Assembly (NCBI GenBank): GCA_030595715.1
Contig: JAUVCN010000013.1
Location: 1 to 38,231 of the forward strand
DNA length: 38,231 bases
Source: Thermoplasmatales archaeon
GTDB lineage: Archaea; Thermoplasmatota; Penumbrarchaeia; Penumbrarchaeales; Penumbrarchaeaceae
Direction: 5' to 3'
Made by a program: the position numbers and the translations under genes. Positions 20,973 through 38,231 of the stretch are shown in pieces (within the stretch, counting starts at the first letter, position 1; each line of letters begins with the position of its first letter). The notes beneath the pieces were generated by a model that saw only the letters and a list, made by a program, of their open reading frames with translations, did no database searches and was not told the DNA's origin.

Positions 20973-22184
20973 TTGGAGATGAACCGTGATTTCGCACATG
21001 AGATATTCAAGGTGATCAGGCAGGTCATCGATGGGAAGAGACATGCTTCATCGGTAATCTCCGAGGTCCTGTCGGACCATCACTCCTGGTCCGATAGACA
21101 GAGGGCGCTCTTTTCCAATACATGTTATGATATCATCAGATGGTGGAGGCTTCTCTGGACGACCCTCGGGAAAGACCCTTCTTTCGAGAGCAGGGACCTG
21201 TGGCATCTTCTGGGAGCCTACATGATCAAGATGAAAGAAAATGTCCCTGACCGTCATGAGTACAGAGGTATGTCGCCTGCAAGGGTCTCCAACAGATTGA
21301 ACAAGATCGGGCACAAGAGGTCCATAAGGGAGTCGATCCCAGAACATCTGGACCAGCTAGGTGAAAGCGAGCTCCACGACGATTGGGATACAATTCTCAG
21401 AGCCCTCAACACTTTCCCTCCTCTTGCGGTCAGGGTCAATACACTGAAGACCAACAGGACCGAATTGAGAGGTATCCTTCACGAAGAGGGACATGATACG
21501 AACATTGTCGAATGGGCTCAGGATGCACTTGTCCTGAAAAAGAAAGGCAACATCTTCAAACTGAGCTCATTCCACAAAGGCCTCTTCGAGGTTCAGGACC
21601 CTGCGTCCCAGATGATCGCTCCTTTCCTGAAGGTCGAACCTGGTATGAAGGTAGTGGATGCCTGTGCTGGTCAGGGTGGGAAAGCCCTTCATCTGGCCTC
21701 ACTGATGGAAAACAAGGGACAGCTTGTTGCGATGGATGATGTGAAATGGAAGCTCAATGAACTGATGAAAAGGGCTTCCCGGGCAGGGGCGCAGAACATC
21801 AGAACGATCCATGTCACCGGGACAAAGTCCTACAAGAGGATGAAGGGTCTGATCGACAGGGTCCTGCTGGATGTGCCATGTACCGGCCTTGGTGCACTGA
21901 GAAGGAATCCCGATATCAAGTGGTCCTTCAATGAAGAGACGCTGGATCGATTGATAGAACTTCAGAGATCGATCATGGAGACCTATTCCCCGCTGGTGAA
22001 GGAAGATGGAAAGATGGTCTATGCCACCTGTTCCATCCTTCCATCAGAGAGTGAGGAGCAGACCGAATGGTTCCTCAAGGAACATCCCGACTGGGAGCTG
22101 GAGGAAGAAAAGAGGATGAGGCCGGATATCGACGGTTTCGATGGATTCTACATGGCCAGGCTTATCAGGACCTCTTCCCCTTGA
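20973..22184 (+). CDS. RsmB/NOP2/Sun-family RNA m5C methyltransferase
   Basis: This is an S-adenosylmethionine-dependent cytosine-5 methyltransferase for rRNA or tRNA (403 residues). The N-terminal part (about 1-140) looks like the NusB-type helical domain found in RsmB. The catalytic domain has FEVQDPASQMIAP, the SAM loop VVDACAGQGGKALHLA, the motif IV cysteine in DVPCTGLGALRRNPD and the motif VI nucleophile in YATCSILPSESEEQ. Both catalytic cysteines are present. The start is either TTG 20973 (AAGGTG 5 nt upstream) or ATG 20979; the protein differs by two residues. The stop overlaps the convergent surface-protein gene by 20 nt. Confidence 0.93.
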   Translation: MEMNRDFAHEIFKVIRQVIDGKRHASSVISEVLSDHHSWSDRQRALFSNTCYDIIRWWRLLWTTLGKDPSFESRDLWHLLGAYMIKMKENVPDRHEYRGMSPARVSNRLNKIGHKRSIRESIPEHLDQLGESELHDDWDTILRALNTFPPLAVRVNTLKTNRTELRGILHEEGHDTNIVEWAQDALVLKKKGNIFKLSSFHKGLFEVQDPASQMIAPFLKVEPGMKVVDACAGQGGKALHLASLMENKGQLVAMDDVKWKLNELMKRASRAGAQNIRTIHVTGTKSYKRMKGLIDRVLLDVPCTGLGALRRNPDIKWSFNEETLDRLIELQRSIMETYSPLVKEDGKMVYATCSILPSESEEQTEWFLKEHPDWELEEEKRMRPDIDGFDGFYMARLIRTSSP

Positions 22185-23196
22185 GAAAATACGCCAAAAA
22201 AGCCAATACTCCTATTATGATCAATATGGAAAACACAATGATGATCAAGATCGAATTGTCATCACCTGATGTATCCTCGGAGTGGTCCGTCGTCCCCGGG
22301 TAAATTGGATCATCGTCCGAAGAGGAGGGTCCCTCATCGGGATCGTCCACCATACCTGTTCCCGGTCCGATATCATCCCTCTTTTCGACCACTTCAATGA
22401 AAGAGGAAGTGATCTCATAGTTGAATTCTTCCCCGCTCATCTTTGCCTGTTTCGAATAGATATGGACCTCGATCTCGAACCTTCCAATGGTTGTACTCGA
22501 AGAAAGCATGATCACAACAGGATATGACCTCGTTTGCTTTTCCGGAATTACGATCTCATCAACCTTTTCCCTGGCGATTATCCCATGATCTTCAAGGTCC
22601 TCCTTGTTGAGGATCTCCATTACAATTATATCCGCACCATTCCCCCGATTAATGGTTTCATAATTGATATCTACCACATCTCCAAGCTCTACTGTATCTA
22701 GCGAAGACGATGGTGAGATGGAGTATTGAAAATATTGTTGGATATTGATGATGGCGGTTGTGGGATCTATTGTTCCGCCCATGGTACCCGGACTGTAACT
22801 CCATCTACCGGAAACGGTCAACTGCCCCTGTGTTCTGGTTGATGTCTCGGAGGGGATCTGGATGCTGACGGTGAAGTTGTGTTCAGTGATCTCGTTGGTG
22901 AATTCCATAGATGGAGGGGCAGATACCGGCCAACCTCCGGCCTCTGCTTGTAATGTTACCACAAGTACCTGTCCAGGGGGCATGGCTGGCGCCTCCGCTG
23001 TTACAACACCTGTGAATTCAACTATCCCTGAAGCTCCGGGAGAAACATCGACCGTCTCACTGGTACTGTCCAGAACGATCGTGATCGCGGGAGCTCCGAT
23101 AGCATCCACTTCAGAGGTGAAAAGCACCATGAATGAGATCGGCATCAGCAGAAATGACAGAAGCACCATTCCCTGCCATCCGTTCTTCCCTCCCAT
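22165..23196 (-). CDS. Secreted membrane-anchored protein, paralogue 1 of 3
   Basis: The 343-residue protein has an N-terminal signal/anchor (about 8-30) ending near EVDAIG, an extracellular region, an acidic Ser/Asp/Pro linker (about 278-315) and a single C-terminal membrane helix (about 316-338) with a basic tail. The first 160 residues align with the next two genes: VSPGASGIVEFTGVVTA, a Q-LVVTL-A segment, GWPVSAPPS-EF, and a YSPG-containing turn followed by TTAIINIQQYFQYSISP. The middle carries a second beta-rich domain. Unlike its neighbours it lacks the two cysteines in the first domain and the E/D-P repeat. Function is unknown; surface attachment or a structural role is inference. It converges on the methyltransferase gene (20-nt overlap). 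Confidence 0.85.
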   Translation of the reverse strand: MGGKNGWQGMVLLSFLLMPISFMVLFTSEVDAIGAPAITIVLDSTSETVDVSPGASGIVEFTGVVTAEAPAMPPGQVLVVTLQAEAGGWPVSAPPSMEFTNEITEHNFTVSIQIPSETSTRTQGQLTVSGRWSYSPGTMGGTIDPTTAIINIQQYFQYSISPSSSLDTVELGDVVDINYETINRGNGADIIVMEILNKEDLEDHGIIAREKVDEIVIPEKQTRSYPVVIMLSSSTTIGRFEIEVHIYSKQAKMSGEEFNYEITSSFIEVVEKRDDIGPGTGMVDDPDEGPSSSDDDPIYPGTTDHSEDTSGDDNSILIIIVFSILIIIGVLAFLAYFLKGKRS

Positions 23197-23218
23197 GACA
23201 AATGGAATGGCCCTGATG

Positions 23219-23243
23219 GGTAATCACTCTTTTGCAGAATTAT
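23219..23243 (-). promoter_or_regulatory. Conserved upstream element of paralogue 1
   Basis: The minus strand reads ATAATTCTGCAAAAGAGTGA then TTACC. The AAAGAGTGATTA core recurs upstream of the other two surface-protein genes. Its distance from the start codon (22 nt) and AT-rich core suit a BRE/TATA pair. Confidence 0.5.
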
Positions 23244-23259
23244 CCAGTTCATCACGGGA

Positions 23260-24327
23260 TCAAGCAGCTTTTTTCCCCTTCCTGGTGAAGATATATATCC
23301 CCACCAATGTAAAGATGAACAGAAGGACCCCACCACCCACAATGAAGGGCCATATGCCAATACCACTCTTGGTCTCGGGATCAATGAATGTCTCATCGAT
23401 ATCGGATGGGTCATCAACGGGATCTTCGATCGGATCTTCTACGTCATCATCAGGCTCTGGCTCAGGTTCTGGATCGGGATCAGGTTCAGGTTTGGGTTCA
23501 GGTTCCGGTAGGGAACCTTCCCTGACAACCTCCAGGTATCCTGTGGCCTTCTCTCTATCACTGATAGCGCCAACTGATTCTGCAACCTGGGACCAGATAA
23601 CAATGTCTACAGGGTAAAGATCTGTCAGAACAGAGTTGTCCGTTCTCAGTATGACGAATATCTCTTCTTCTCCTCCGTATGGTATGGATATCGAATCCCG
23701 GGACAATGATGCATGAATACCCTCTTTCAGGAGTTGTTCAGCATTTTCCACTTCTATTCCTATTGATTCATCTCCATTTCCAAGGTTTTCAACGAGGAAA
23801 GGCATTTCTCCGACCCCACCTCCCTCGACGTAGGAAACAGATTCAACTGGAGATATGGTAAAGGAATAATATTGTTTGATAACAATTATTGCAGTTGCTC
23901 CCTCGCAATCTCCGCTTGATACACCCGGAGAATACATCCAGGTCCCGTTGATGTAAAGAATTGCATTTGTGGATCGAGGGGTTCCGATCGGTACCTGAAC
24001 AGATATTTGAAAATTCTGAACTGACACAGCACGATTGAACGTCAAGCTTGGTGCCCCGGATACTGCCCATCCCTCACAGTAAGCGGTCAATGTAACCACC
24101 AAATATTGCACACTGGGTGCCCATGGAATATCAGCTCTGACCTCACCGGTGAAGGTAACAACACCGTCCTGTCCTGGTGCCACATAAGCGGTCTGCTTGG
24201 TCTGTGTAAGAATGATCTGAACATCTGGATCTCCCACACCGCTGACATCCTCTGGCATAACAATGAGAATAGATAGCGAACTCAAAATGATCACAAGGGA
24301 AAACACGTATGACATCCATTTCTTCAT
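23260..24327 (-). CDS. Secreted membrane-anchored protein, paralogue 2 of 3
   Basis: The 355-residue protein has a signal peptide (about 1-31), then a beta-rich domain with [20 protein letters not shown] and two cysteines (in AYCEGW and SSGDCEG), and a second domain containing [15 protein letters not shown] linker of nine E/D/K-P dipeptides follows, then [17 protein letters not shown], a C-terminal membrane helix (IWPFIVGGG...) and a basic RKGKKAA stop. It is very similar to paralogue 3, nearly identical in the last 60 residues and over the first domain, while the second domain has diverged. The start is ATG 24327, behind GGTGG. The layout is that of a surface protein held by its C-terminal helix. 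Function is unknown. Confidence 0.87.
   Translation of the reverse strand: MKKWMSYVFSLVIILSSLSILIVMPEDVSGVGDPDVQIILTQTKQTAYVAPGQDGVVTFTGEVRADIPWAPSVQYLVVTLTAYCEGWAVSGAPSLTFNRAVSVQNFQISVQVPIGTPRSTNAILYINGTWMYSPGVSSGDCEGATAIIVIKQYYSFTISPVESVSYVEGGGVGEMPFLVENLGNGDESIGIEVENAEQLLKEGIHASLSRDSISIPYGGEEEIFVILRTDNSVLTDLYPVDIVIWSQVAESVGAISDREKATGYLEVVREGSLPEPEPKPEPDPDPEPEPEPDDDVEDPIEDPVDDPSDIDETFIDPETKSGIGIWPFIVGGGVLLFIFTLVGIYIFTRKGKKAA
23453..23508 (-). repeat. Short hexamer-type repeat encoding nine x-P dipeptides
   Basis: A degenerate GGNTCN hexamer (plus strand) encodes the E/D/K-P linker of paralogue 2. It has about 9 units, against about 21 in paralogue 3. Confidence 0.7.
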
Positions 24328-24358
24328 CTATTCCACCGGCTGTGATAATGCAATGAAA

Positions 24359-24383
24359 GATAATCACTCTTTCGTAGAATGAT
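24359..24383 (-). promoter_or_regulatory. Conserved upstream element of paralogue 2
   Basis: The minus strand reads ATCATTCTACGAAAGAGTGA then TTATC, 31 nt before the ATG. It shares AAAGAGTGATTA with paralogue 1 and closely matches the paralogue 3 element in position. Confidence 0.55.
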
Positions 24384-24398
24384 ACCCCATATCACAGA

Positions 24399-25538
24399 TC
24401 AATCTGCTCTTTTTCCCTTCCTGGTGAAGATATATACCCCCACCAATACCAATATGAATAGAAGGACCCCGCCACCAATAATGAAAGGCCATATGCCGAT
24501 ACCGCTCTTGGTCTCGGGATCAATGGATATCTCATCGATATCGGATGGATCATCAACGGGCTCGTCGGTCGGATCATCGACGTTATCATCGGGCTCGGGT
24601 TCAGGTTCGGGCTCTGGATCCGGATCAGATTCGGGTTCAGACTCTGGTTCGGGTTCTGGATCGGGTTCAGGTTCCGGATCAGGCTCTGGTTCGGGTTCAG
24701 GTTCTGGATCCGGATCAGGTAGAGAACCTTCCCTTACTACTTCGATGTGTGTTGATGTCCTTTCAATATCATTGATGTCACCCAGTTCTTTTGCGGTATA
24801 GGACCAGATAGCGATTTCGAGATCGTAGAACCCGGTAGATGTGAAATCGGCCAAAAACAATTCTACAAAAATGATCTCTTCTCCTTCAAAGGGAATGGTA
24901 ATTGTCTTTTTGGGTAATGAGGCAAAGATGCCTTCCTCGGTGAGTTGATCATCATTCTCGATCTCAATTTCTATCTCATCATTTCCGTTTCCAAGGTTTT
25001 CAACAAGGAAAGGGACCTCACCAATACCGCCTTCTTCAACATAGCTAACAGATTCAACTGGAGAGACGGAATAAGAGAAATATTGTTTTATGATAATTAT
25101 TCCCGTTGTTCCATCGCAATCTCCACTGGACACTCCGGGAGAATATTCCCATGTCCCGTTGACGAAGAGAGTTGCACCTGTGGCTCGTGGTGTTCCAATT
25201 GGTACCTGGACCGATATTTGAAAGTTTTGAATAGTTACAGCACGATTGAAAGTAAGTGTGGGTGGATTTGAAACCGACCAACCTTCGCAGAATGCGGTCA
25301 ACGTGACAATTAGATATTGAATATTGGGTGCCCAGGGGACCTGAGCTGTGACCTCACCTGTGAATGTTACAACACCATCCTGTCCAGGTGCAACATAAGC
25401 AGTCTGTTTGGTTTGTGATAGAATGATCCTGATCGCGGGTGAACCCACACCGTCAGCCTCCTCGGAGATTCCAACGATAAGGGAAAATGAACTCAGAATA
25501 ATTGCTATCGAGACAGCGTATGTCATCCACCTCTTCAT
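24399..25538 (-). CDS. Secreted membrane-anchored protein with long E/D-P repeat, paralogue 3 of 3
   Basis: The 379-residue protein has the same architecture as paralogue 2: a signal peptide (about 1-31), a first domain with [22 protein letters not shown] and the cysteine pair (AFCEGW, SSGDCDG), and a second domain with [15 protein letters not shown] rigid acidic linker of about 21 D/E-P dipeptides (interrupted by two E-S) follows, then [18 protein letters not shown], the C-terminal helix and a basic tail. The linker is the main length difference from paralogue 2. The start is ATG 25538 behind GGTGG, with the shared upstream element 31 nt before it. It is probably a surface protein projecting its N-terminal domains through the cell envelope. 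Function is unknown. Confidence 0.87.
24591..24720 (-). repeat. Tandem hexamer repeat encoding about 21 D/E-P dipeptides
   Basis: The plus strand is a run of GGNTCN hexamers (GGTTCA, GGTTCG, GGCTCT, GGATCC, GGATCA) for about 126 nt, encoding the acidic proline-rich linker. Such in-frame hexamer arrays can change length by slippage without shifting frame. Confidence 0.85.
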
Positions 25539-25631: not shown

Positions 25632-26078
25632 ATGTCAAAGATCGAAGAAGCGGTCGAAAGGTTCCGGTCCGATCACAATTGCTCCCAGTCGATCCTGACC
25701 ATATATGGAAAGGACCTTGGTTTGAACGAAGAGACAGCTGTTCAACTCGCAGGCCCATTCGGTGGGGGGATGGCACGGAAAGGACAGGTCTGTGGGGCGG
25801 TGACAGGTTCACTGATGGTCCTTGGATTGAAATATGGATCCGGGGATCCGGGAGATAAAGGTTCCAAAGAAAGACTATTGAATATATCAAGATCTTTCAT
25901 GGACAGGTTCAACGAGAAGAATGAGAACCTTCGCTGCAATGATCTCCTGGGTCATGATATTGGAACACCAGAGGGGAGAGCGGAAGCCAAGAAAAGGAAC
26001 CTGTTCAAGGAAAGATGCCCCGGATTCGTGGGGAGCGCTGCCTCGATCCTCGAGGATATCATGGATGAGGAATGGTGA
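25632..26078 (+). CDS. C_GCAxxG_C_C family protein
   Basis: The 148-residue protein of the C_GCAxxG_C_C family is a putative redox protein of unknown function, sometimes found with electron-transfer partners. The conserved cysteines are visible: HNCSQSIL (C17), GQVCGAVTG (the GCAxxG-type loop after FGGGMARKG), NLRCNDLLG and RCPGFVGSA near the C-terminus. No signal peptide or membrane segment is seen. The start ATG 25632 follows GGAGG with about 8 nt spacing. It is the first gene of a tight rightward operon: its stop overlaps the reading frame of the 5-oxoprolinase-type gene, suggesting translational coupling. Confidence 0.9.
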   Translation: MSKIEEAVERFRSDHNCSQSILTIYGKDLGLNEETAVQLAGPFGGGMARKGQVCGAVTGSLMVLGLKYGSGDPGDKGSKERLLNISRSFMDRFNEKNENLRCNDLLGHDIGTPEGRAEAKKRNLFKERCPGFVGSAASILEDIMDEEW

Positions 26079-26089
26079 CAAATGATTTT

Positions 26090-29000
26090 ATGGACCTTAC
26101 CGGTTCAAGTTCGATGAATGAAAGGAATGGTGGGTGGCAGTTCTACATCGATCGGGGTGGCACATTCACCGATATCGTTGCCGTTCCACCATCAGGAGAT
26201 ATCAAGGTACAAAAACTACTCTCCGAGGACCGGTCGAGATACAGGGACGCAGCGGTCCACGGCATCCGAGAGATCCTTTCGATCGAAGAAGGTGAGGAGA
26301 TCCCCATGGACCGGATCGACTCGATCAGGATGGGTACTACGGTAGGAACCAACGCGTTACTGGAAAGAAAGGGAGAACAAACCGCTCTTCTGATAACAAA
26401 AGGATTTCGAGACCTGCTCCGGATCGGTTATCAGAACCGGCCCGACCTCTTCGCTCTTGATATCAGATTACCGGAACAGCTTTACTGCCATGTGGAAGAG
26501 ATCCATGAGAGGATCCTTTCTGACGGAACAATAAGTGTGCCCCTGGACAGGGATGATGCAAAGGATGCCTTCGAAAGGATCAAGGCCAAAGGGATCGGAT
26601 CGGTCGCTATCGTTCTGATGAACTCATACAAGTATCCTGTTCACGAGACCGAACTGGCAGGGATCGCCAGGGATATTGGTTTCTCCCAGATATCGGTATC
26701 CTATCAGGTAAGCCCCTTGATGAAAATAGTAGGGCGAGGTGACACTACAGTGGTGGATGCCTATCTCTCCCCGATCCTTCTGAGATATATCGACAGTGTC
26801 AAGAATGAACTGGATGGCGATCGCGATCTTCTTTTTATGCAGAGTTCAGGCGGCCTTGTGGACCACTCCCTCTTCAAGGGAAAAGACTGCATCCTTTCCG
26901 GGCCGGCAGGAGGGATCGTCGGGGCGGTGAGGACATCGCTCGACGCAGGTTCGAAGAAGATCATCACATTCGACATGGGTGGGACCTCGACAGATGTTGC
27001 CCATTACAGTGGGGAAATGGAGAGATCATTTGAAACTGAGATCGCCGGTGTAAGGATCAGGGCACCCATGCTCAGGATCCATACCGTCGCTGCCGGTGGG
27101 GGATCGATATTGAAGTTCGAGGATGGAAGGTTCAAGGTCGGTCCTGATTCGGCAGGAGCCGACCCCGGTCCCGCTTCTTATCGAAAGGGGGGCCCGTTAT
27201 CGGTCACCGATGCGAACCTGCTGCTTGGAAGGATACAGGCAGACCATTTTCCGGGAGTGTTCGGAAAAGAAGGGAATGAACCACTGGACATAGATATCGT
27301 AAGGAAGAAGTTCAGATCGTTGGCCGAAGAGGTCTCTCTTGGGTCCGGAGTGAAGAGAACACCGGAGGAGGTCGCCCATGGCTTTCTTCAGGTCGCCATC
27401 GAGAACATGGCACAGGCGATAAAGACGATCTCTACCATGAGGGGATATGACGTGTCCGATCATATCCTCGCATGTTTCGGTGGTGCCGGAGGCCAGCATG
27501 TCTGCGGTGTCGCTGATTCCCTTGGAATTAAAAAGGTTCTCATCCATCCTCTTGCAGGTGTCCTCTCGGCATATGGAATGGGACTTGCAAAGATCTCGGT
27601 TATCAAAGAGAGGACGATCGAGAGAACCTTCGACGCCGGATCCATACCATTGATCGAAGAACTTATCTCGGAACTTGGTTCAAGGATCGAAAAGGAACTG
27701 AAAGAGCAGAAAATCGAGGAAGATGATATCGATATCAAGACAAGGATCCACCTGAAATACAGCGGAACCGATACTCCGATACCCATCGAATACAGTGGGC
27801 TCGATGGGACCACAGAGGCCTACGAGAAGGAGCATATGGAGAGGTTCTCTTTCATTATGCGAGGAAAAGACCTTGTTATCGAGACCATCGAGGTTGAAGG
27901 TATCGGAGGCGGGATACCTACACCTTCCAGAAAGGAAGAAATGTTGGAACATCAAGTAGAGGCCCATGGAAGGGTATATCTGAATTTCAATAATGAATGG
28001 ACTGAAGTTCCCCTGTATCAAAGAGACCGATTGAGACCGGGATCGATAATGAACGGACCTGCCGTGATCACTGAAGGGACCGGAACCAATATTGTCGAAC
28101 CCGGATGGAAGGCATCGATCAGCGGGTCATCCGACCTGATCATGGAAAGAGCGGGATCGCAAGATAGAGAAATAGCAGTGAGAACAGACGTGGACCCGGT
28201 CATGCTCGAGATATTCAATAGACTGTTCATGTCGATCGCGGAGCAAATGGGTTACTCTCTGCGCAACACATCATATTCCGTGAACATCAAGGAGAGACTG
28301 GATTTCTCCTGCGCTCTATTTGATGGAGGGGGAGGCCTTGTGGCAAATGCACCTCATATACCGGTCCACCTCGGTTCGATGTCAGATTCGGTCAGAAGAT
28401 GGCTTGATGATAAGAAGGAAATGATCGAACCGGGTGACACATACCTGATCAACTCCCCTTACCACGGTGGAACACACCTTCCGGATGTCACCCTGATCAC
28501 TCCCGTTTTCGGTGATGATACGAAAAAGCCACTCTTCTTCGTTGCTTCGAGAGGGCATCATGCTGACATCGGAGGAAAGACCCCGGGATCGATGCCACCC
28601 GATTCAAGGACGATCGACGAAGAAGGGGTTCTCTCATCGGGTTTCAGGATCGTGAGTTCCGGTGTCTTCATGGAAGAACGGGTCCGCGATTGGCTCACAT
28701 CCGGCAAATATCCTGCAAGAAACCCTGACAGGAACATATCGGACCTGAAAGCCCAGATAGCTGCCAACGAGAAAGGGCAAAAAGAATTGATGAAAATGGT
28801 GGAAAGATACTCATTGGACATGGTGAGGTCCTACATGCTCCATGTCCAGAAGAATGCGGAAGAATCTGTCAGGAACGTGATAAGCAAACTTCACAGCGGC
28901 TCATCAAATTTGATAATGGACCTGGGAGGGAAGATATCTGTCGATATCATCATTGATAAAGAGGGCAGGTCCGTGATCGTCGACCTGACAGGATCCTCGG

Positions 29001-29734
29001 ACCAACTTGATTCGAACTTCAATGCACCCAGTGCCGTTTGCACTGCTGCTGTTCTCTTCGTATTCAGGACCCTTGTCAAGAATGATATTCCACTGAACAA
29101 GGGATGCCTTGAACCGATCGATATAAGGATCAAGAAAGGGTCGATGCTCGATCCACTTCCACCGGCAGCAGTGGCTGCCGGGAACGTTGAGACATCAATG
29201 TTCATTGCAGATGCTCTTTTCTCCGCCCTTGGAACACTTGGAGGTTCGCAGGGTACAATGAACAATCTCACATTCGGTAATGAACGATACCAGTATTACG
29301 AAACAATATGCGGGGGGACAGGAGCGGGTGATGGTTTCGATGGAACTGATGCCGTCCATTCCCATATGACCAATACCAGGATCACGGACCCCGAGGTTCT
29401 TGAACACAGGTACCCCGTTGTCCTGGAGGAGTTCTCCATCATGAAAGGCTCCGGTGGTAGAGGCAGGTTTACGGGTGGTAATGGTGTCAGAAGGATCATC
29501 AGGTTCAATGAACCGATGACGGTTTCGATCATCTCGGAGCACCGCAAGGTCCCACCTCTGGGCATCTGTGGTGGTGGTCCAGGGGCACTGGGAAGGAACA
29601 CTATCATCAGGAAGGATGGCACACACATCCCTCTTGATGGATGCGGTTCGATGGAGGTTGATGAGGGGGATCTTATCAGGATCGAAACCCCGGGTGGAGG
29701 TGGCTTCGGACGCATGGAGGTGAAAATGTCATGA
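26090..29734 (+). CDS. Fused HyuA-HyuB hydantoinase / 5-oxoprolinase-type ATPase
   Basis: The single chain of about 1214 residues combines the A and B halves of ATP-dependent hydantoinase/5-oxoprolinase enzymes, as in eukaryotic OPLAH, which opens 5-oxoproline to glutamate. The A half (about 1-690) shows [60 protein letters not shown] and [15 protein letters not shown], the sugar-kinase-like ATP and metal sites. The B half (about 700-1214) shows [48 protein letters not shown] and [12 protein letters not shown]-like glycine loops. The substrate could be 5-oxoproline, hydantoin or acetophenone-type. Start: ATG 26090 follows GGTGA (26074-26078) at 11 nt. ATG 26072 and ATG 26114 are in-frame alternatives. 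The stop overlaps the next start (ATGA). Confidence 0.93.
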   Translation: [1214 protein letters not shown]

Positions 29735-30551: not shown

Positions 30552-31730
30552 ATGGATAAGAACAATTTCAAGATATCCGCAGAGATATTGCAAAAGAATG
30601 CCATGAAGGCATCGATTCGCGACCTCAATGCGGAGTTTCAGATGAAAGGGGGAAAAGTGATCTACAAAACCTCCAAGAATGGAGATACATATCAGCTCTC
30701 CCATATGGATGAAGAATATCTGGAGAAGTTCAGGCTCCGTCTTCTGTTGGAACTCGGGTTGATCGAGGAGAAGGACATCCCCAAAGAGGCAAAGGAACCC
30801 ACGGGACCACCACCGAGATACGGAGAAGACCATAAACTGAGAAGAGGCTGGAACGTCAGAAGCCCAAAGGAATTCAGGGAAGGACATTACAATCGTGATG
30901 AAAAAGGAGCCAGATCCGAAGGTGACCGATATGAAAGAAGGGACCACAGGGATCAACAACAAAGAGGACACACATCACGAAACAACTACAGATCCGGACC
31001 AACAAGGGAAACCTCACCTTCAACATATGATCGGGAACATGAGGAAGTGGATGATTCAAAGACCTTCGAGGAGAGGTGGGGAAATGTATCCGAATATCTG
31101 GACCTGGTCAGGGAAGCCTTGAAAGAAGGGGCGGTCGATGACGGGGAGATCATCAAACATGCCTACAATAAAAAAGTGGACAAGGAGAAGATCCGGACAC
31201 TGAAAAAGATCCTCTGGGATAATAGATGCCGTGGACCAAGGACAAAATGTCCCCATGGAAAGAAGAAATTCAGGTTCGAGGACCTCATGAAGGTCTGCTC
31301 CGGAAAGGTTGAAGGTTGGGACAAGATAGATTCACCCTTCATCCAGTTCAATGACCTCTGGAAGGAGAACATCGAAAAGATGTATGGTGGTCTTGAGAAG
31401 AAGATCATCGATGTAGAGGGGAAGATCTCGTCCTACAAACCTGTGAACAGGAAGAAGCATGAGCATCTCAAGATACTTGTATACGATACCATTGTAACAC
31501 CGGAAGGATCCGATGAGAAAAGGGATACCCGAAAACTCTGGATCAAAGTCACCAAAGAGGAATATGAGAAGCTTATCGATGGATCGGCCATTCATGTGGA
31601 TGATCTGATATCTCTCAAAGGAAAATGCATCTATGACAGTTACTTCCATGATCACTGGGTGATCGATATCGTTGAGTTCAAGGTACTGACATCATCCGAC
31701 GGAGAATTGCTAAAATTCCCGGAATCGTGA
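30552..31730 (+). CDS. Unknown charged protein with disordered linker and Cys/His cluster
   Basis: I do not recognise a named family for this 392-residue protein. The N-terminal 80 residues look like a small folded helical domain. Residues about 85-175 form a hydrophilic Arg/Asp/Gln/Ser-rich linker (RDHRDQQQRGHTSRNNYRSG), typical of disordered RNA-binding tails. A helical region follows. A Cys/His cluster C226, C233, H235, C249 (CRGPRTKCPH... and KVCSGK) may bind metal. The C-terminus (about 290-392) is beta-rich with KLWIKVTKEEYEKL and LKGKCIYDSYFHDHWVIDI. No signal peptide or membrane helix is seen. A nucleic-acid-binding role is inference from composition. It has its own promoter and converges on the pilin-like gene with a 2-nt gap. 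Confidence 0.8.
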   Translation: MDKNNFKISAEILQKNAMKASIRDLNAEFQMKGGKVIYKTSKNGDTYQLSHMDEEYLEKFRLRLLLELGLIEEKDIPKEAKEPTGPPPRYGEDHKLRRGWNVRSPKEFREGHYNRDEKGARSEGDRYERRDHRDQQQRGHTSRNNYRSGPTRETSPSTYDREHEEVDDSKTFEERWGNVSEYLDLVREALKEGAVDDGEIIKHAYNKKVDKEKIRTLKKILWDNRCRGPRTKCPHGKKKFRFEDLMKVCSGKVEGWDKIDSPFIQFNDLWKENIEKMYGGLEKKIIDVEGKISSYKPVNRKKHEHLKILVYDTIVTPEGSDEKRDTRKLWIKVTKEEYEKLIDGSAIHVDDLISLKGKCIYDSYFHDHWVIDIVEFKVLTSSDGELLKFPES

Positions 31731-31732
31731 TC

Positions 31733-32212
31733 TCATTCGGCCAATGATACAACAAGGTGGTCCTGTCCATCATCCATTGACCTTTTGATCCGTATTCGAT
31801 ATGATCCTCCTCCGATCGTCAATCCGGACCCATCTTCCGATGTGATCGGAAATGGAGGGTCAAGGGCGAATTTTCCGGTGGATCCTGTTGTCAGGGAGTA
31901 CTGGATCAGATATCGACCGACACCTTCGGACAGAGACCCTCCAATGTTCAATTCATCCATGCTGCATGATCCAAACCCGTCGAGATCGATATCCACGTAG
32001 GATACGCTTCCGATATCTCCCGATAGGACATCCTCCATGGCCGATATCATTCGTTCTATCGATCTTGTTACCACACCTTCGGTCAGGTCCTCCGACAGGT
32101 CCCCATATGCGGAAAAGAAGATAGGGACCGCCAGTGACATCATACAGGCTCCGATCAATAATTGCATGGGTAGGTCTGATAGACCGCGGGTTGAAGCACC
32201 CGATCCTCGCAT
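31733..32212 (-). CDS. Type IV pilin-like small secreted protein
   Basis: The 159-residue protein begins with a short basic leader ending TRG, followed by LSDLPMQLLIGACMMSLAVP, a hydrophobic stretch right at the would-be mature N-terminus. This is the pattern of archaeal class III (prepilin peptidase) signals, cut after the G. An acidic residue follows at about position 3 of the mature part. The rest is a beta-rich soluble domain (DIDLDGFGSCSMDELNIGG... to IRIKRSMDDGQDHLVVSLAE). Known archaeal pilin-like proteins of this size form pili or sit in secretion systems, but no PilB/PilC partner is in the window. The start ATG 32212 is chosen because the TATA box at 32231-32240 predicts transcription near 32211, giving a leaderless message. 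An ATG two codons upstream (32218) is possible. Confidence 0.65.
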   Translation of the reverse strand: MRGSGASTRGLSDLPMQLLIGACMMSLAVPIFFSAYGDLSEDLTEGVVTRSIERMISAMEDVLSGDIGSVSYVDIDLDGFGSCSMDELNIGGSLSEGVGRYLIQYSLTTGSTGKFALDPPFPITSEDGSGLTIGGGSYRIRIKRSMDDGQDHLVVSLAE

Positions 32213-32250: not shown

Positions 32251-33210
32251 TCAGAGCGATGTGTCGGGGGTGATGTCCTCCATGTCAATGGATCTCATCA
32301 TCTCATCGAACGACCGTATGGTCCCGGCCCCTGATCGGTCGGATCCAGTCTGAACATCCTGAATGAAAGGGGATATCATGACCAATCTCCAAGAGGTCGT
32401 TCCTTCGGGTCCTTCCGTGATACCTATGTTGACACCCTCCGATCCACCGGTTGCAGATGCAAGCAGTTCATTTACCTCGGTGGTAGTAGCTGTTCTATCG
32501 ACCTCGATCACAATTGAAGATGGAGTATGGATCCGATCAAGTACACGGGGTGGTTGTCCATCCTTCATGAATTCCAGTATCGATAGATCGAATGATGAAC
32601 CACTCTCCTTCAAGAGGTTCCAGGACATTGGGGGCAATTGAACGATGGCCGACCGGGAAACGGCTCTATTTATCATTTGCAGTGAATCCATCAGTTCCTG
32701 ATGAGAGAGCTGTCCATTCTCCGATGTTTCCGGGTCCTCGCCGGTCAAGGTGACCTTGACACCGGGACTCAGAGGGCCGTTGACAAGGACCCGGGCCATA
32801 TCCCGGGACCTCTGGGTGGCTTTTCTTAAACCCTCTTCGATGATCAGAACGATCAGGGATGGTAGGCCGACCTTGACAAGAAGGGAATTGATCTCGACCG
32901 CTCCCGCGATGGAAGTGGCCCCCTCGATATCTGCAAGTATCATTACAAGAGGTCTTCCCAGAACGATCGGGGCAATATCCTCCATCTGCTTCTTGAAACA
33001 AGCTCTGGCAAGGTTCAAATTGCCACCGGAACCCTCCCCTGCAACAACATCTTCCCCTACCAGGAGTGACAGGTCCATCTCATCGGAGACCGACCTTCTA
33101 TCGGTATCCAGGAAAAGGATATTCGAACCTCTCGGCCCGAATGAAGAACCGATCCTGCAGGAATTGCCACCTATGCAGACCATCAAAGGTCCCTTCGTCG
33201 GTTCGGTCAT
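32251..33210 (-). CDS. Divergent FtsZ/tubulin-superfamily-like protein with decayed GTP signature
   Basis: The 319-residue protein follows the FtsZ layout from start to end. Residues 10-21 (MVCIGGNSCRIG) sit where FtsZ has its first glycine-rich strand-loop. ILFLDTDRRS (31-40) matches the INTDAQ segment, and VVAGEGSGGNLNLAR (55-69) matches the G-GAGGNP loop. LVMILADIEGATSIAGAVEI (88-107) occupies the place of the GGGTGTG tubulin signature. The C-terminal third has TEVNELL then GVNIGITEG and RLVMISPF, matching the FtsZ terminal domain pattern EVNEA...NIIFGA...VRVTVIATGF. The signature itself is changed (IEGATSIAG), so GTP hydrolysis is doubtful. This is my reading by eye, not a search result. 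Start ATG 33210 has GGTGGAGG immediately upstream; a TTG at 33255 has no ribosome site. It sits between a thioredoxin-like and a pilin-like gene. Confidence 0.55.
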   Translation of the reverse strand: MTEPTKGPLMVCIGGNSCRIGSSFGPRGSNILFLDTDRRSVSDEMDLSLLVGEDVVAGEGSGGNLNLARACFKKQMEDIAPIVLGRPLVMILADIEGATSIAGAVEINSLLVKVGLPSLIVLIIEEGLRKATQRSRDMARVLVNGPLSPGVKVTLTGEDPETSENGQLSHQELMDSLQMINRAVSRSAIVQLPPMSWNLLKESGSSFDLSILEFMKDGQPPRVLDRIHTPSSIVIEVDRTATTTEVNELLASATGGSEGVNIGITEGPEGTTSWRLVMISPFIQDVQTGSDRSGAGTIRSFDEMMRSIDMEDITPDTSL

Positions 33211-33251
33211 GGTCCTCCACCGACCATTGCATGCTGGATTATTAACAGTTT

Positions 33252-33905
33252 TCAAAGGAGCGACCTGATGTCGCTCTCGAGGATACTTGCGCCGGTCACA
33301 CCAACATGGGTCTTTCCCATGTTGCCATCCTTATCAAGGATATACAAGGTCGGAATCGATGAAGATGGGAAAGCGGAGTTGAATTCTGGACTGGACCTGG
33401 CGAATGTCCAGGTTGCCCCCTCATCCCTCTTGAACTCTGTTATCAATCCCATCGATTCCGAGAGATCGACCCCGACCGAGAGTATTACCATCTCCCCGAA
33501 AGAGAACCTTGTTTTCAGAATATCCAGCTCCTCCATCTGGGTCTTGCAGGGACCGCACCATGTTGCGAACAGGTCCAAAACGATGACCTTTCCTTTGTAT
33601 TGGTCCAGGAATATCTTACCACCATCGGTGGTATCGAGAATTATCGACCCTGTACCGGAGCCTGTTGGTGTATCGTTGTTGTTATCATTGTCATTTATGA
33701 TGATGTTGTCATTGCTGTCCGGTCTATTGGCATACATCACCACACTGACGGCTATGAGGGTCAGAATGATCCCGATGACGATCACCGGAGCAAATGGGAA
33801 TGGAGGCTTCTCAACAGACCTGTTCTTTCTCTTCGGACGATCATAATTACTGGCCTTATGCTTGTTCGATCTGCTTTTCACCTTGTCGGAATATGACTTC
33901 CCCAT
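33252..33905 (-). CDS. Membrane-anchored TlpA/ResA-like thioredoxin
   Basis: The 217-residue protein has a basic cytoplasmic head (about 1-35), one membrane helix (about 38-60), an Asn/Asp-rich linker (NDNIIINDNDNNND) and an extracytoplasmic thioredoxin domain (about 85-217). The active site is FATWCGPCKTQ and the cis-proline is in SSIPTLYIL, so it can exchange disulfides. TlpA/ResA proteins typically reduce or mature secreted cysteine proteins. In this window two of the tandem surface proteins have a cysteine pair and are possible clients, which is inference. The start ATG 33905 is favoured because the TATA box at 33928-33938 predicts a transcript start near it. A GTG at 33926 would lie upstream of that start. 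Confidence 0.92.
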   Translation of the reverse strand: MGKSYSDKVKSRSNKHKASNYDRPKRKNRSVEKPPFPFAPVIVIGIILTLIAVSVVMYANRPDSNDNIIINDNDNNNDTPTGSGTGSIILDTTDGGKIFLDQYKGKVIVLDLFATWCGPCKTQMEELDILKTRFSFGEMVILSVGVDLSESMGLITEFKRDEGATWTFARSSPEFNSAFPSSSIPTLYILDKDGNMGKTHVGVTGASILESDIRSLL

Positions 33906-33963: not shown

Positions 33964-35805
33964 TCAAAGAACCCTTTTAAACCACTTCTCGAGAACCTTC
34001 AATGGAAGCCTGACCATGGTTGGCCTGCCATGCGCGCAATGGAGTGGGATCTCACATTTGAGCAGGTCCTCGATCAGGTCCTCCATCTCCTTGAGGGATA
34101 GACCCTCATGAGCTTTGATAGCCCCTCTGCATGCCGTCAACGCAATGAGTCGCTCCTTGATCGGCAGTTCGACCCGGAACGATTCATCGGGATATGAACA
34201 TCCCTCATGATGCTCATTTCCGGTGATCATGTCCCTGAGGACCTCATGTCCCTCTGTCCTTCCAAGGAACCTTGGAAGTCCCCTGACCGTTATCATATCC
34301 GTTCCAAAGGTCTCGAATTTGAACCCCAGGTCCTTCAGGTCCTGATCCATCCTTCTCAGGTTCTCGGAAGAGAAACCATCCAGTTCGATCTGGACCGGTT
34401 CCAGTAGTTCCTGAACGATCACCTTATCGTTCCAGTGTTTCTTCTTGAGCATCTCCAATCTGATCCGCTCATGGGCTGCATGTTGATCGATCAGCAGAAG
34501 GTCAGCCCCGATCTCGCACAGGATGTAGGACCGATCAAGCTGCCCGATGATCCTTATCCTCTTCCTGCCCGGTCCGGTAGGAAGACCAGGGGATAATTTG
34601 TCCATTCCCTCGATGGAAGGGACCTCGTTCCAGGGTCCGGGAGTGGTGTCCTGTGGTCTTACCTCATCTTCCATCAGAGGAACCTGCCTGGGAGACCTGT
34701 CAATGGGCGTTCTATCCTCTTTTGACATCAGGTAGATACCCGATCCCATATTATCTTCCGGAGTCTCTGCTGCAGGTGTGGGTCTCCTCAGCTTTCTCCC
34801 TTTTCCGGAGAAGAGGGTTCTCGAGACCATGGATTCCAGCGAGTTGAGGACCGCACCCTCGTTGCTGAACTTCACAATATCCTTCGTTGGATGGACATTG
34901 GCATCCACATCCTTGCCGTCCATTTCAACGAAGATCACGGCAAGAGGGAATCTGCCTTTCATCAACCTGCTGCCGTAACCCCTTCTGATCGCCTCCACCA
35001 TGGATCGGTCCTTCACCACCCTTCCCCCGACGGATATGGTGATACCTCCGGAATTGGACCTTGTCTCCCATGGAAGTGATATCAATCCGGTCATTCTCAT
35101 TCCAGATACATCCCCGGATTCGAGCTGAATCATTCCCTTGGCGGTTTTCACGCCAAGGACCTCGGCGGCCCGATGCCGGGTGTCATCCGATGATATGCCC
35201 GAAAGCCTATCATCTCCATCGATGAACATCTTGAAACCAGTATGTGGATTCACCAGCATCAATCTCTGGAAGATATCCATGCAGGCGGCCTTTTCGGCCT
35301 GTACCGACCTGAGGAACTTCTTCCTGGCAGGAACGTTCTCGAAGAGATCGGTGACGGTTATCCGGGTGCCTTCGGGACAGCCAGCATCTTCCATCGTCAG
35401 GATCCTTCCCGCGGATACGACTATCCTGGTTCCATTCTCCTCAGGCGATCCCTTCTCCCTTGTCAGTAGCTCCACATTGGCAACTGCGGAAATGGATGCG
35501 AGAGCCTCGCCCCTGAAACCCAGTGTCGATAGCTTGTTCAGGTCCTCGATCGTGGATATCTTGGATGTGGAGTGCCTTATGAATGCCACCTCCGCATCCT
35601 CTCTTGACATTCCGTCTCCGTCATCTATCACGGTGATCCGACCTATCCCACCCTTGTCGAAATAGATCGTGATCGATGTTGCTGATGCATCAATGGAATT
35701 CTCCACGAGCTCCTTGATCACACTTGAGGGAGAACCCACTACCTCCCCGGCGGCGATCTTGTTGACCGTTACCCGGTCAAGGACCCTTATCCTCCTTGGC
35801 ATCAT
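33964..35805 (-). CDS. mutL: DNA mismatch repair protein MutL (endonuclease type)
   Basis: MutL couples MutS mismatch recognition to strand processing. The 613-residue protein has a GHKL ATPase domain with IAAGEVVGSPSSVIKELVEN, NSIDAS, DDGDGMS and GFRGEALASISAVA, a transducer domain (to about 330), a linker, and a C-terminal dimerisation/endonuclease domain. The nuclease motif DQHA-X2-E-X4-E is complete from residue 440 (DQHAAHERIRLE). The supporting ACRGAIKAHE and CAHGRP motifs are also present (usually CPHGRP). The frame extends upstream to 36054, but family similarity starts at MPRRIRVLDRVTVNKIA. ATG 35805 (or the adjacent 35802) is leaderless relative to the AT-rich promoter near 35826. 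MutS is not in the window. MutL is patchy in archaea and commonly regarded as bacterial-derived. Confidence 0.96.
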   Translation of the reverse strand: MMPRRIRVLDRVTVNKIAAGEVVGSPSSVIKELVENSIDASATSITIYFDKGGIGRITVIDDGDGMSREDAEVAFIRHSTSKISTIEDLNKLSTLGFRGEALASISAVANVELLTREKGSPEENGTRIVVSAGRILTMEDAGCPEGTRITVTDLFENVPARKKFLRSVQAEKAACMDIFQRLMLVNPHTGFKMFIDGDDRLSGISSDDTRHRAAEVLGVKTAKGMIQLESGDVSGMRMTGLISLPWETRSNSGGITISVGGRVVKDRSMVEAIRRGYGSRLMKGRFPLAVIFVEMDGKDVDANVHPTKDIVKFSNEGAVLNSLESMVSRTLFSGKGRKLRRPTPAAETPEDNMGSGIYLMSKEDRTPIDRSPRQVPLMEDEVRPQDTTPGPWNEVPSIEGMDKLSPGLPTGPGRKRIRIIGQLDRSYILCEIGADLLLIDQHAAHERIRLEMLKKKHWNDKVIVQELLEPVQIELDGFSSENLRRMDQDLKDLGFKFETFGTDMITVRGLPRFLGRTEGHEVLRDMITGNEHHEGCSYPDESFRVELPIKERLIALTACRGAIKAHEGLSLKEMEDLIEDLLKCEIPLHCAHGRPTMVRLPLKVLEKWFKRVL

Positions 35806-35816
35806 TTGCCGAAGGT

Positions 35817-35833
35817 AAGGATAAATATTAAGG
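35817..35833. promoter_or_regulatory. Bidirectional promoter core, mutL / lhr
   Basis: AGGATAAATATTAAGGG gives TATA-like sequence on both strands. Leftward it predicts a start at about 35800-35805, at the mutL ATG. Rightward it predicts a start near 35853, about 14 nt before the lhr TTG start. The two genes are probably fired from one AT-rich core. Confidence 0.6.
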
Positions 35834-35866
35834 GTTTTCAGTCCTTCCGAGCTCCGGAGTGAACCA

Positions 35867-38231
35867 TTGGCATCAAATGATGAGAAAAGTAGCGACATAG
35901 AACATATCGAAGGGCTAGAAAACCTTTCGAAGAACGTCGCCCGCCACATGAAAAGAAAGGGGATCAAAAAGGCCACGGATCCACAGAAATTGGCTTTCGG
36001 CCCGGTAATGAGTGGAAAGGATGTTCTGCTGATAGCTCCGACCGGACATGGCAAGACCGAGGCAACGTTCGCTCCACTTTTGCAAAAGCTTCATGAAGAA
36101 GGTTCGGCAAAAGGGATCAGACTTCTCTATATTGCCCCGTTGAGGGCCCTGAACAGGGACATCCTCGAGAGGATGAAATACTGGTGTGAAGACCTTGACC
36201 TCACCATAGGGGTCAGACATTCGGATACAACACAGTCAGAGAGGAATAAACAATCCAGGAAACCACCTGATGTACTTGTGACCACACCGGAAACACTGCA
36301 GATAATGTTCACAGGCTCGAGGCTGAGAAAGGGACTTGCAAATGTCAGATACATCATACTGGATGAGATACATGAATTGTACGGGGGCGAGAGGGGGGCT
36401 CAACTGGATGTCGCCCTATCAAGGCTAGATCGGATCACGGGAATTGATGTTCAGAGAGTTGGCCTATCCGCCACCGTTGAGGATCCGAAAGATGTGGCCA
36501 GATATCTATCCGGCCCATGTAGAAGCCCCGAGATCATCATGGGAAGGGAGGAAAAGGAGTATTCTTTCACAGTTGACTCCCCTCTGACATCACTTGATGA
36601 TATCGAATGGGCCAGGACCCTCGGATGTTCTACCAAGGTGGCCGGGGTCGTTCGAAGGATCAGAGAGCTTTCGGAAGATGTGAGATCGGCACTTGTATTC
36701 GTGAATTCCCGGGACCTTGCAGAAGCGCTGACAACTAGATTGAGGGCTTACGATCCCGAACTGAAAGTAGGCATACATCATGGATCCCTGTCCAGGGAAG
36801 CCAGAATGGAGATGGAGACCGAGTTCAAGGATGGGCAGATGAAATTGATGGTCTGCACCTCCTCCATGGAACTTGGAATGGACATAGGGGTCGTGGACCT
36901 TGTCATACAGTTCAAATCACCCAAAGAAGTGTCGAGACTGCTTCAAAGGGCAGGGAGAGCCGGCCACAGGATAGGGGACATCTCGAGATGTGTTGTACTT
37001 GCAACGGAGCCCGATGATATCCTGGAGGCGGGAGTGATCGCACATCTCGCAATCGGAGGAAAACTTGAGGCAGGAAAGGCCAGGAAGGGCATACTTTCCG
37101 TTCTGGCGAACCAGGCCCTTTCCATGGCCTCCGCAGACAAGGAATATCATATCGACGAGTTCCTCGAAATGGTAAGAAGATCGTATACATTCTCGGACAT
37201 GACAAGAGAGACACTCGAGGAAGTGATCGGCTATCTACATTCATCAAGGCTCATCTACTACGAGAAGGAGACCGGAATTGTAAAGGGAGGTCGAAGGTCC
37301 AGGGAATATTTCTACGAAAATATCTCGATGATACCCGATGAGAGGGTGATGTTGATAAGGGACCTGTCCACAAGGAAGGTGATCGGATCACTGGACATGG
37401 ATTTCGTCCTGTCAAACCTGGAACCGTTCGCCAAGTTCATAGTCAGAGGCCAGCCCTGGAGGGTCGTGGATATCGGGGATGATGAGATCACTGTTGAGCC
37501 TATCACAGAGCTTGGCCCGGTCCCGGCCTGGAGTGGATCTGACATTCCCGTTCCATGGGAGGTTGGCAGGGAGGTCGGAAAGTTCAGGAAATTGATCGTC
37601 GGAGCTATTGAAAGAGGAGAGGAAGTCAAGGATATCATATCGGACCTGCCATTAAGCGAGGATGCTATTGAAGCTGTTGTCAAGATATTCTCCGAACAGG
37701 TGGAAGAAGATTTCGTAACTCCAGATTCGGATACCATCACCATCGAGATCGGTCAGGAGGGGATCGTTATCGGGAACTGCGGCGGGACCAGGGTCAACGA
37801 GACCATAGGCCGGGTGATAGCCGCACTTCTATCAGCCAAGCATGGCGGTAATGTTGTGGTCGATTATGACCCGTACAGGATCCTTCTGATGGGGGATCTC
37901 CGACTAAGGGCCAGTGATATCGAATGGGCCTTCTCCCATGCACCCACGGACGATATGGGTTACATGGTTCCGGTCCTGTTGAAGAACTCTCCACTGCTTC
38001 GATGGCAGATGCTGCATGTTGCAAAGAAGTTCGGCGTGCTGAAAGGTGACATCGATCCGAAGAAATTCCCCCTGAAGAGATTGATGTCCCGATGGAAGGA
38101 CACCCTCATCATGGAAGAGGCCACAAGGAAGATCATGCATGAGAGACTGGACATGGAACATGCCAGTGAGGTCCTCCTGTCATTGATCGAGGGCAGGACC
38201 GAATTGGTCGTTCAGAAGGTGTCTCCTCTTT
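35867..38231 (+). CDS. lhr: Lhr-type superfamily 2 helicase, N-terminal part (3' end beyond window)
   Basis: This is an ATP-dependent Lhr ('large helicase-related') nucleic-acid helicase, implicated in DNA repair or RNA metabolism in archaea. About 788 residues are present. They include Walker A APTGHGKTEATF (about residue 57), PLRALNRDI (motif Ia), DEIHELYGGERGAQL (motif II, DEIH form, about 165), LSATVEDP (motif III, about 200), the SMELGMDIG segment and QRAGRAGH (motif VI, about 359), then the winged-helix and Lhr-core domains. The frame is open to the last base, so the C-terminus is missing. The start is TTG 35867, four nt after GGAGTGA. The first in-frame ATG, at 35948, would cut the N-terminus. 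It is divergent from mutL with a shared promoter. Confidence 0.94.
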   Translation, partial: MASNDEKSSDIEHIEGLENLSKNVARHMKRKGIKKATDPQKLAFGPVMSGKDVLLIAPTGHGKTEATFAPLLQKLHEEGSAKGIRLLYIAPLRALNRDILERMKYWCEDLDLTIGVRHSDTTQSERNKQSRKPPDVLVTTPETLQIMFTGSRLRKGLANVRYIILDEIHELYGGERGAQLDVALSRLDRITGIDVQRVGLSATVEDPKDVARYLSGPCRSPEIIMGREEKEYSFTVDSPLTSLDDIEWARTLGCSTKVAGVVRRIRELSEDVRSALVFVNSRDLAEALTTRLRAYDPELKVGIHHGSLSREARMEMETEFKDGQMKLMVCTSSMELGMDIGVVDLVIQFKSPKEVSRLLQRAGRAGHRIGDISRCVVLATEPDDILEAGVIAHLAIGGKLEAGKARKGILSVLANQALSMASADKEYHIDEFLEMVRRSYTFSDMTRETLEEVIGYLHSSRLIYYEKETGIVKGGRRSREYFYENISMIPDERVMLIRDLSTRKVIGSLDMDFVLSNLEPFAKFIVRGQPWRVVDIGDDEITVEPITELGPVPAWSGSDIPVPWEVGREVGKFRKLIVGAIERGEEVKDIISDLPLSEDAIEAVVKIFSEQVEEDFVTPDSDTITIEIGQEGIVIGNCGGTRVNETIGRVIAALLSAKHGGNVVVDYDPYRILLMGDLRLRASDIEWAFSHAPTDDMGYMVPVLLKNSPLLRWQMLHVAKKFGVLKGDIDPKKFPLKRLMSRWKDTLIMEEATRKIMHERLDMEHASEVLLSLIEGRTELVVQKVSPL

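Follow-up and report, generated by a model that had tools for sequence, protein, structure and literature searches.

Known FtsZ relatives and the ftsZx locus

In FtsZ the T7 loop provides the catalytic aspartate that acts on the GTP of the adjoining subunit. CetZ is a non-division tubulin-superfamily paralogue of archaea that already hold FtsZ, and CetZ1 has been linked to archaellum placement in Haloferax (PMC11621097). FtsZl1 and FtsZl2 are divergent FtsZ-like families. In FtsZl1 the T6-H7 region is lost or blurred; its proteins combine a coiled coil with a helical C-terminal domain, and vWA, GTPase and kinase genes are its neighbours. FtsZl2 keeps its nucleotide loops intact, T6 and T7 among them, and is extended at the C-terminus by about 300 aa (Makarova and Koonin 2010, PMC2875224). 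Uncharacterised FtsZ-like proteins, some of them from Thermoplasmata, also form a non-canonical Thermoplasmata/Culexarchaeia clade (PMC9723716). FtsZ pseudo-enzymes are hardly described in the literature searched, and a search for GTPase-deficient FtsZ paralogues returned nothing specific.

FtsZx is a 319 aa protein encoded in the window, the 38,231-nucleotide stretch of Thermoplasmatales DNA analysed here. Its open reading frame spans 32251-33255 on the minus strand, with the 319-aa form starting from the ATG at 33210, immediately upstream of which lies GTGGAGG. The preliminary description had given the range 32251-33905, which takes in both genes because the thioredoxin gene has its start codon at 33905. 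Comparisons cover eight genomes of the host family (the Thermoplasmatota family of the window genome), namely the window genome and G001-G007. The features of the locus are as follows, the motifs being those of the orthologue alignment.

30552..31730, plus strand: gene30552, 392 aa, convergent, conserved downstream neighbour
31733..32212 (ORF to 32218), minus strand: pilin-like protein, DUF7311-related, with a 52-residue N-terminal helix and a beta domain in the model
32251..33210, minus strand: ftsZx, divergent FtsZ-family protein, 319 aa (profile searches, fold model, tree)
32254..32316, minus strand: C-terminal tail, residues 299-319, a conserved helix-like segment without a GID motif
32620..32637, minus strand: LPPMSW, residues 192-197, at the site of the T7 loop NLDFAD, W197 invariant
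32761..32778, minus strand: GPLSPG, residues 145-150, a conserved motif peculiar to FtsZx that lies between H5 and S6
32902..32928, minus strand: T4/tubulin signature equivalent IEGATSIAG, residues 95-103 (PGGGTGTPG in G001, G004 and G006)
33022..33039, minus strand: T3 equivalent GEGSGG, residues 58-63
33154..33174, minus strand: T1 equivalent IGGNSCR, residues 13-19, GG invariant in all eight orthologues
33252..33905 (ORF to 33926), minus strand: tlpA-like membrane-anchored thioredoxin with WCGPC (Pfam, alignment)
33964..35970, minus strand: mutL, conserved upstream neighbour of the tlpA-like gene

FtsZx is rated a new lineage-restricted FtsZ variant, which the descriptions of FtsZl1 and FtsZl2 do not fit. 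Like CetZ it is a paralogue beside ordinary FtsZ, but in a search of PDB its family profile matches CetZ2 (1.3e-4) much more weakly than Methanocaldococcus jannaschii FtsZ (1.2e-10), its closest solved sequence relative. FtsZl1 and FtsZl2 are set apart by description: unlike FtsZl1, FtsZx has only 319 aa, a modelled alpha/beta C-terminal domain and mutL, tlpA and pilin-like neighbours, and unlike FtsZl2 it lacks T6, T7 and the extra C-terminal region, ending soon after the FtsZ C-terminal domain. The Culexarchaeia-clade proteins (PMC9723716), likened to FtsZx by description only, could be the same proteins.

Family membership, loops and descent of FtsZx

That the window protein is a divergent member of the FtsZ family is close to certain. 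As a single sequence it matches FtsZ among PDB chains at 1.5e-5 (phmmer), and an independent HMM, for which 15 canonical Thermoplasmatota FtsZ proteins were aligned, scores it at 25.9 bits, against a maximum of 7.2 bits for 5000 composition-preserving shuffles. NCBIfam ftsZ matches seven of the eight family members and Pfam Tubulin six, the G001 and G004 orthologues exceeding the Pfam cut-off in a genome-wide search, and the HMM-HMM comparison of the FtsZx and canonical FtsZ profiles gives an E value of 1.6e-9. An AlphaFold2 model based on an alignment of eight sequences (mean pLDDT 73, pTM 0.75) shows a Rossmann-like GTPase domain, a short H7 helix and a C-terminal domain. For this model Foldseek retrieves FtsZ structures (probability 1.0, E 4e-11, TM 0.60-0.65), the match extending over about 320 columns and across both domains. 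Searched alone, the window protein does fall short of the cut-off for Pfam Tubulin, scoring 15.7 of 33 bits, and finds no match in NCBIfam, as would be expected if it were no FtsZ relative and the resemblance arose by chance. The shuffle control, the profile comparisons, the near-canonical loops of some orthologues and the fold match leave this explanation next to no probability, and the orthologue alignment and fold search rule it out. The preliminary description had recognised a paralogue of the FtsZ family whose tubulin signature is degenerate, which profiles, orthologue alignment and tree bear out; its proposed check by profile search and fold prediction has been survived, the FtsZ profile being matched and the FtsZ fold predicted.

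All the landmarks quoted for the 319-residue product are present (IGG 13-15, LDTD 34-37, GEGSGGN 58-64, IEGATSIAG 95-103 and EVNE...NIG...MISPF) and align, in the expected order, first with the FtsZ loops T1 to T4 and then with the C-terminal domain. The phosphate-side loops T1-T4 are recognisable in all eight orthologues, with GG, DTD, GEGxG, G-x-T and GAVE invariant. The T4 region reads PGGGTGTPGAVE in the G001, G004 and G006 orthologues versus DIEGATSIAGAVE in the window, with intermediates in G002 (CEGGTGLSGAVE) and in G003, G005 and G007 (xGATGxAGAVE). The signature GGGTG[ST]G is thus nearly preserved in the first three (GGGTGTP) and gone from the window protein (EGATSIA), T4 being eroded in five of the eight. 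Since PGGGTGTPGAVE is still found in three sister orthologues, the DIEGATSIAGAVE of the window represents erosion within an FtsZ lineage. GTP binding and polymerisation may persist in the orthologues that read PGGGTGTPG.

FtsZx shares with archaeal FtsZ1 and FtsZ2, which occur in the same genomes, the two-domain fold and the order of T1-T4. Unlike them, it lacks T5 (PFxxE) and T6 (NDxLL) with the start of H7 (NDKLLE...PLNAAF) in all aligned orthologues, as well as the catalytic T7 loop (NLDFAD, NxDxxD) in every orthologue covering the region, and its C-terminal domain is shortened by the loss of the S7-S8 segment. Archaeal SepF binds FtsZ through a C-terminal GID motif (PMC8178401); one of the canonical FtsZ proteins of the window genome (L002) ends in FGIDFIR, whereas a comparison of the tails finds no GID motif in any FtsZx orthologue. 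As T7 supplies the catalytic aspartate in FtsZ, normal hydrolysis is expected to be lost, and FtsZ-type hydrolysis has likely disappeared from FtsZx. The loss of GTP hydrolysis had been put forward from the tubulin signature, and the case is now stronger, given that T7, which that account left aside, is missing from every orthologue. Other positions are newly conserved: GPLxPG before S6, in which G145, P146, L147, P149 and G150 are invariant; a LPxSxW-type motif in the place of T7 with an invariant W197; and a conserved tail different from the FtsZ tail. From the Rossmann topology, both motifs would be expected on the surface through which an FtsZ subunit touches the one next to it.

FtsZx orthologues occur in all eight host-family genomes and in none of the other genomes searched. 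The seven others are 25-36% identical to the window protein and every reading frame is intact, the G001 copy being broken solely by contig ends. In an FtsZ tree that took in no CetZ sequences, the eight form one clade (support 100/100) on a very long stem of 3.41 changes per column. The tree resolves no sister group for them because long branches meet, and long-branch joins are flagged. The evolutionary rate of FtsZx is close to those of the adjacent tlpA and pilin-like genes, while tree distances in the same genomes show FtsZ1 and FtsZ2 to be far more conserved. A phylum-wide search yields matches outside the host family in the N-domain only, on canonical FtsZ or short FtsZ-like proteins; those placed in the tree all stand outside the FtsZx clade, and 12 neighbourhoods of such relatives contain no convincing match to mutL, tlpA or the pilin-like gene. 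A contig scan with the single FtsZx protein gave no match, and one with the FtsZx alignment recovered seven loci, corresponding to the seven family genomes already found. Viral contigs contain no FtsZx relative, and thus there is no sign of a viral origin.

Neighbouring genes and other FtsZ-like proteins

The order mutL-tlpA-ftsZx-pilin-gene30552 is kept in all eight host-family genomes, which answers in the affirmative the question of conservation raised at the outset (the G001 neighbourhood was read across two contig ends and that of G006 up to one). Beyond gene30552 the outer genes vary within the family. In the sister family, the pilin-like gene of G009 adjoins gene30552 without ftsZx or tlpA, its tlpA lying on a different contig amid unrelated genes, and mutL of G008 is also found amid unrelated genes. 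The cluster from mutL to gene30552 is therefore restricted to the host family, and ftsZx is its sole member without a counterpart outside, an absence that may reflect gain here or loss elsewhere and is to be read against the incompleteness of the sister-family genomes (54% and 80%). Gene30552 itself was found, among the relatives searched, only in the host family, G009 and G010; by eye, the C-terminal part of its 392-aa product, encoded beside mutL/mutS, resembles an OB fold. MutL and mutS are DNA repair genes, and their proximity to ftsZx may therefore mean little.

As first described, ftsZx lies between a gene for a membrane thioredoxin and one for a pilin-like protein. The thioredoxin has a Redoxin match (5e-11), the WCGPC motif and one N-terminal membrane segment. 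The pilin-like protein, modelled as a 52-residue N-terminal helix with a beta domain, has no matching fold among solved structures; DUF7311 matches five of the seven pilin-like proteins, and relatives are spread through the phylum, some adjoining other small, probably pilin-like proteins. At three loci of other Thermoplasmatota (L131:5513-6469, L133:5723-6722 and L134:5820-6864) a DUF7311-like pilin gene adjoins a small protein with an Ig-like/carboxypeptidase-regulatory domain, perhaps as a minor pilin pair. Genes for the pilus platform (T2SSF) are located elsewhere in all four host-family genomes examined. The window has two further features: a 1220-aa ORF (26072-29734) resembling fused hydantoinase/oxoprolinase A and B subunits, with an ORF also of 1220 aa near the pilin gene of L134 (592-4254), and a tandem array of three mutually paralogous ORFs (343, 355 and 379 aa; 22165-25538), of which G005 and G002 have a single copy or two.

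A functional unit of tlpA, ftsZx and the pilin-like gene is plausible. Each of the three has its own conserved TATA-like element about 25-35 nt upstream of its start; judging by these elements, the genes are probably not one transcript, and a simple operon is weakened as an explanation. A disulfide-based action of the thioredoxin on the pilin-like protein is unsupported, as a search of the latter for conserved cysteines found none. The separate TATA-like elements, the lack of a solved-fold match for the pilin-like protein and its lack of conserved cysteines all speak against the proposal of the preliminary description that FtsZx, thioredoxin and pilin-like protein make up one envelope system; an undescribed envelope system may still be hypothesised.

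The preliminary description asked whether the genome has a canonical ftsZ at another site, and FtsZ1 and FtsZ2 are indeed both encoded away from this locus in all eight host-family genomes, with SepF in seven. The division set being intact, FtsZx is an addition and not a replacement. Another FtsZ-like paralogue in the window genome, 352 aa long (L003:1462-2520, contig C122), reads GKGTASG at T4 and has T7 changed to SLSISDLR; its tail, RWDIPMIR, resembles the SepF-binding GID tail, and it has counterparts in the other family genomes. A 512-aa tubulin-superfamily protein with TADGGTGGGL is encoded in the same genome on the minus strand (L004:481-2019, contig C110), downstream of a gene that by eye resembles a tRNA synthetase of the aspartyl type, and has weaker matches in G003, of similar size, and perhaps in G005. 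Other Thermoplasmatota families encode short FtsZ-like proteins of about 230-300 aa (L066-L089) with an intact GGGTG[TS]G; in the five aligned, the T7 loop and C-terminal domain are absent.

Possible roles of FtsZx

The reading given somewhat better than even chances is that FtsZx is a lineage-restricted, non-hydrolysing paralogue with an FtsZ fold that acts as a scaffold or regulator, a surface structure being the best guess for its client. Without the T7 aspartate, FtsZx would be unable to trigger GTP hydrolysis of the next subunit and so would not treadmill as FtsZ does. Given the new motifs on the presumed subunit-contact face and a tail unlike that recognised by SepF, its most likely mode of action is to bind a dedicated partner via this reworked face and tail, and it would work at the membrane as a static scaffold or as a positioning or regulatory subunit. 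Going by the neighbours of ftsZx, the best guess for the client is a surface structure whose assembly uses machinery of the type IV pilus kind, a link that may be hypothesised from conserved proximity and by analogy with CetZ1. Several points weigh against this reading: the separate TATA-like elements of the cluster genes, the pilin-like protein without a solved-fold match, the DNA repair genes close by, the chance that orthologues with PGGGTGTPG retain GTP binding and polymerisation, and a fold model built on eight sequences at a mean pLDDT of 73. A more specific form casts FtsZx as cytoplasmic scaffold for an envelope module of tlpA-like and pilin-like proteins that originated in a single Thermoplasmatota family; static and GTP-independent, it would position a surface structure, and living intermediates would lead from PGGGTGTPG to IEGATSIAG. 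This form is doubtful.

It is conceivable, if rather unlikely, that FtsZx instead modulates the ordinary division ring by capping or co-assembling with FtsZ1/FtsZ2. Its upper (nucleotide) face would dock under a canonical FtsZ, and its bottom face, devoid of T7, would stop hydrolysis and growth. The candidate partners FtsZ1 and FtsZ2 are available in every family genome and SepF in seven of eight, T1-T4 are the best-kept part of FtsZx, above all in G001, G004 and G006, and a cap would need exactly the loss of T7. However, that top face is eroded in the window's own lineage, FtsZx has no SepF-binding tail, ftsZx is remote from the ftsZ genes, and a partner of FtsZ might be more constrained than a protein evolving about as fast as tlpA and the pilin-like gene. 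FtsZx might also be an active nucleotide-dependent polymer that binds a nucleotide through T1-T4, hydrolyses it slowly or with a different residue and forms its own filaments for surface or shape, as CetZ does. The PGGGTGTPGAVE of three orthologues and the GG, DTD, GEG and GxT positions invariant in all eight fit such a polymer, but the loss of T5, T6 and T7 from all orthologues and the erosion of T4 in five of eight make it improbable.

Long branches and progressive motif erosion would also be seen in a decaying, functionless paralogue that happens to lie beside unrelated genes. This is very improbable, since the frame is intact in all eight genomes, the locus and the new FtsZx motifs are conserved, and dN/dS, which is 0.20 and 0.25 for the two most closely related pairs, indicates purifying selection and therefore argues against decay.

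Within the host family, then, the GTP loops range stepwise from near-intact to eroded while the fold is preserved, and ordinary FtsZ1 and FtsZ2 stand alongside; the role of an FtsZ fold without hydrolysis therefore becomes testable. If FtsZx is tied to its pilin-like neighbour, it would be a second tubulin relative, after CetZ1, that serves an archaeal surface structure.
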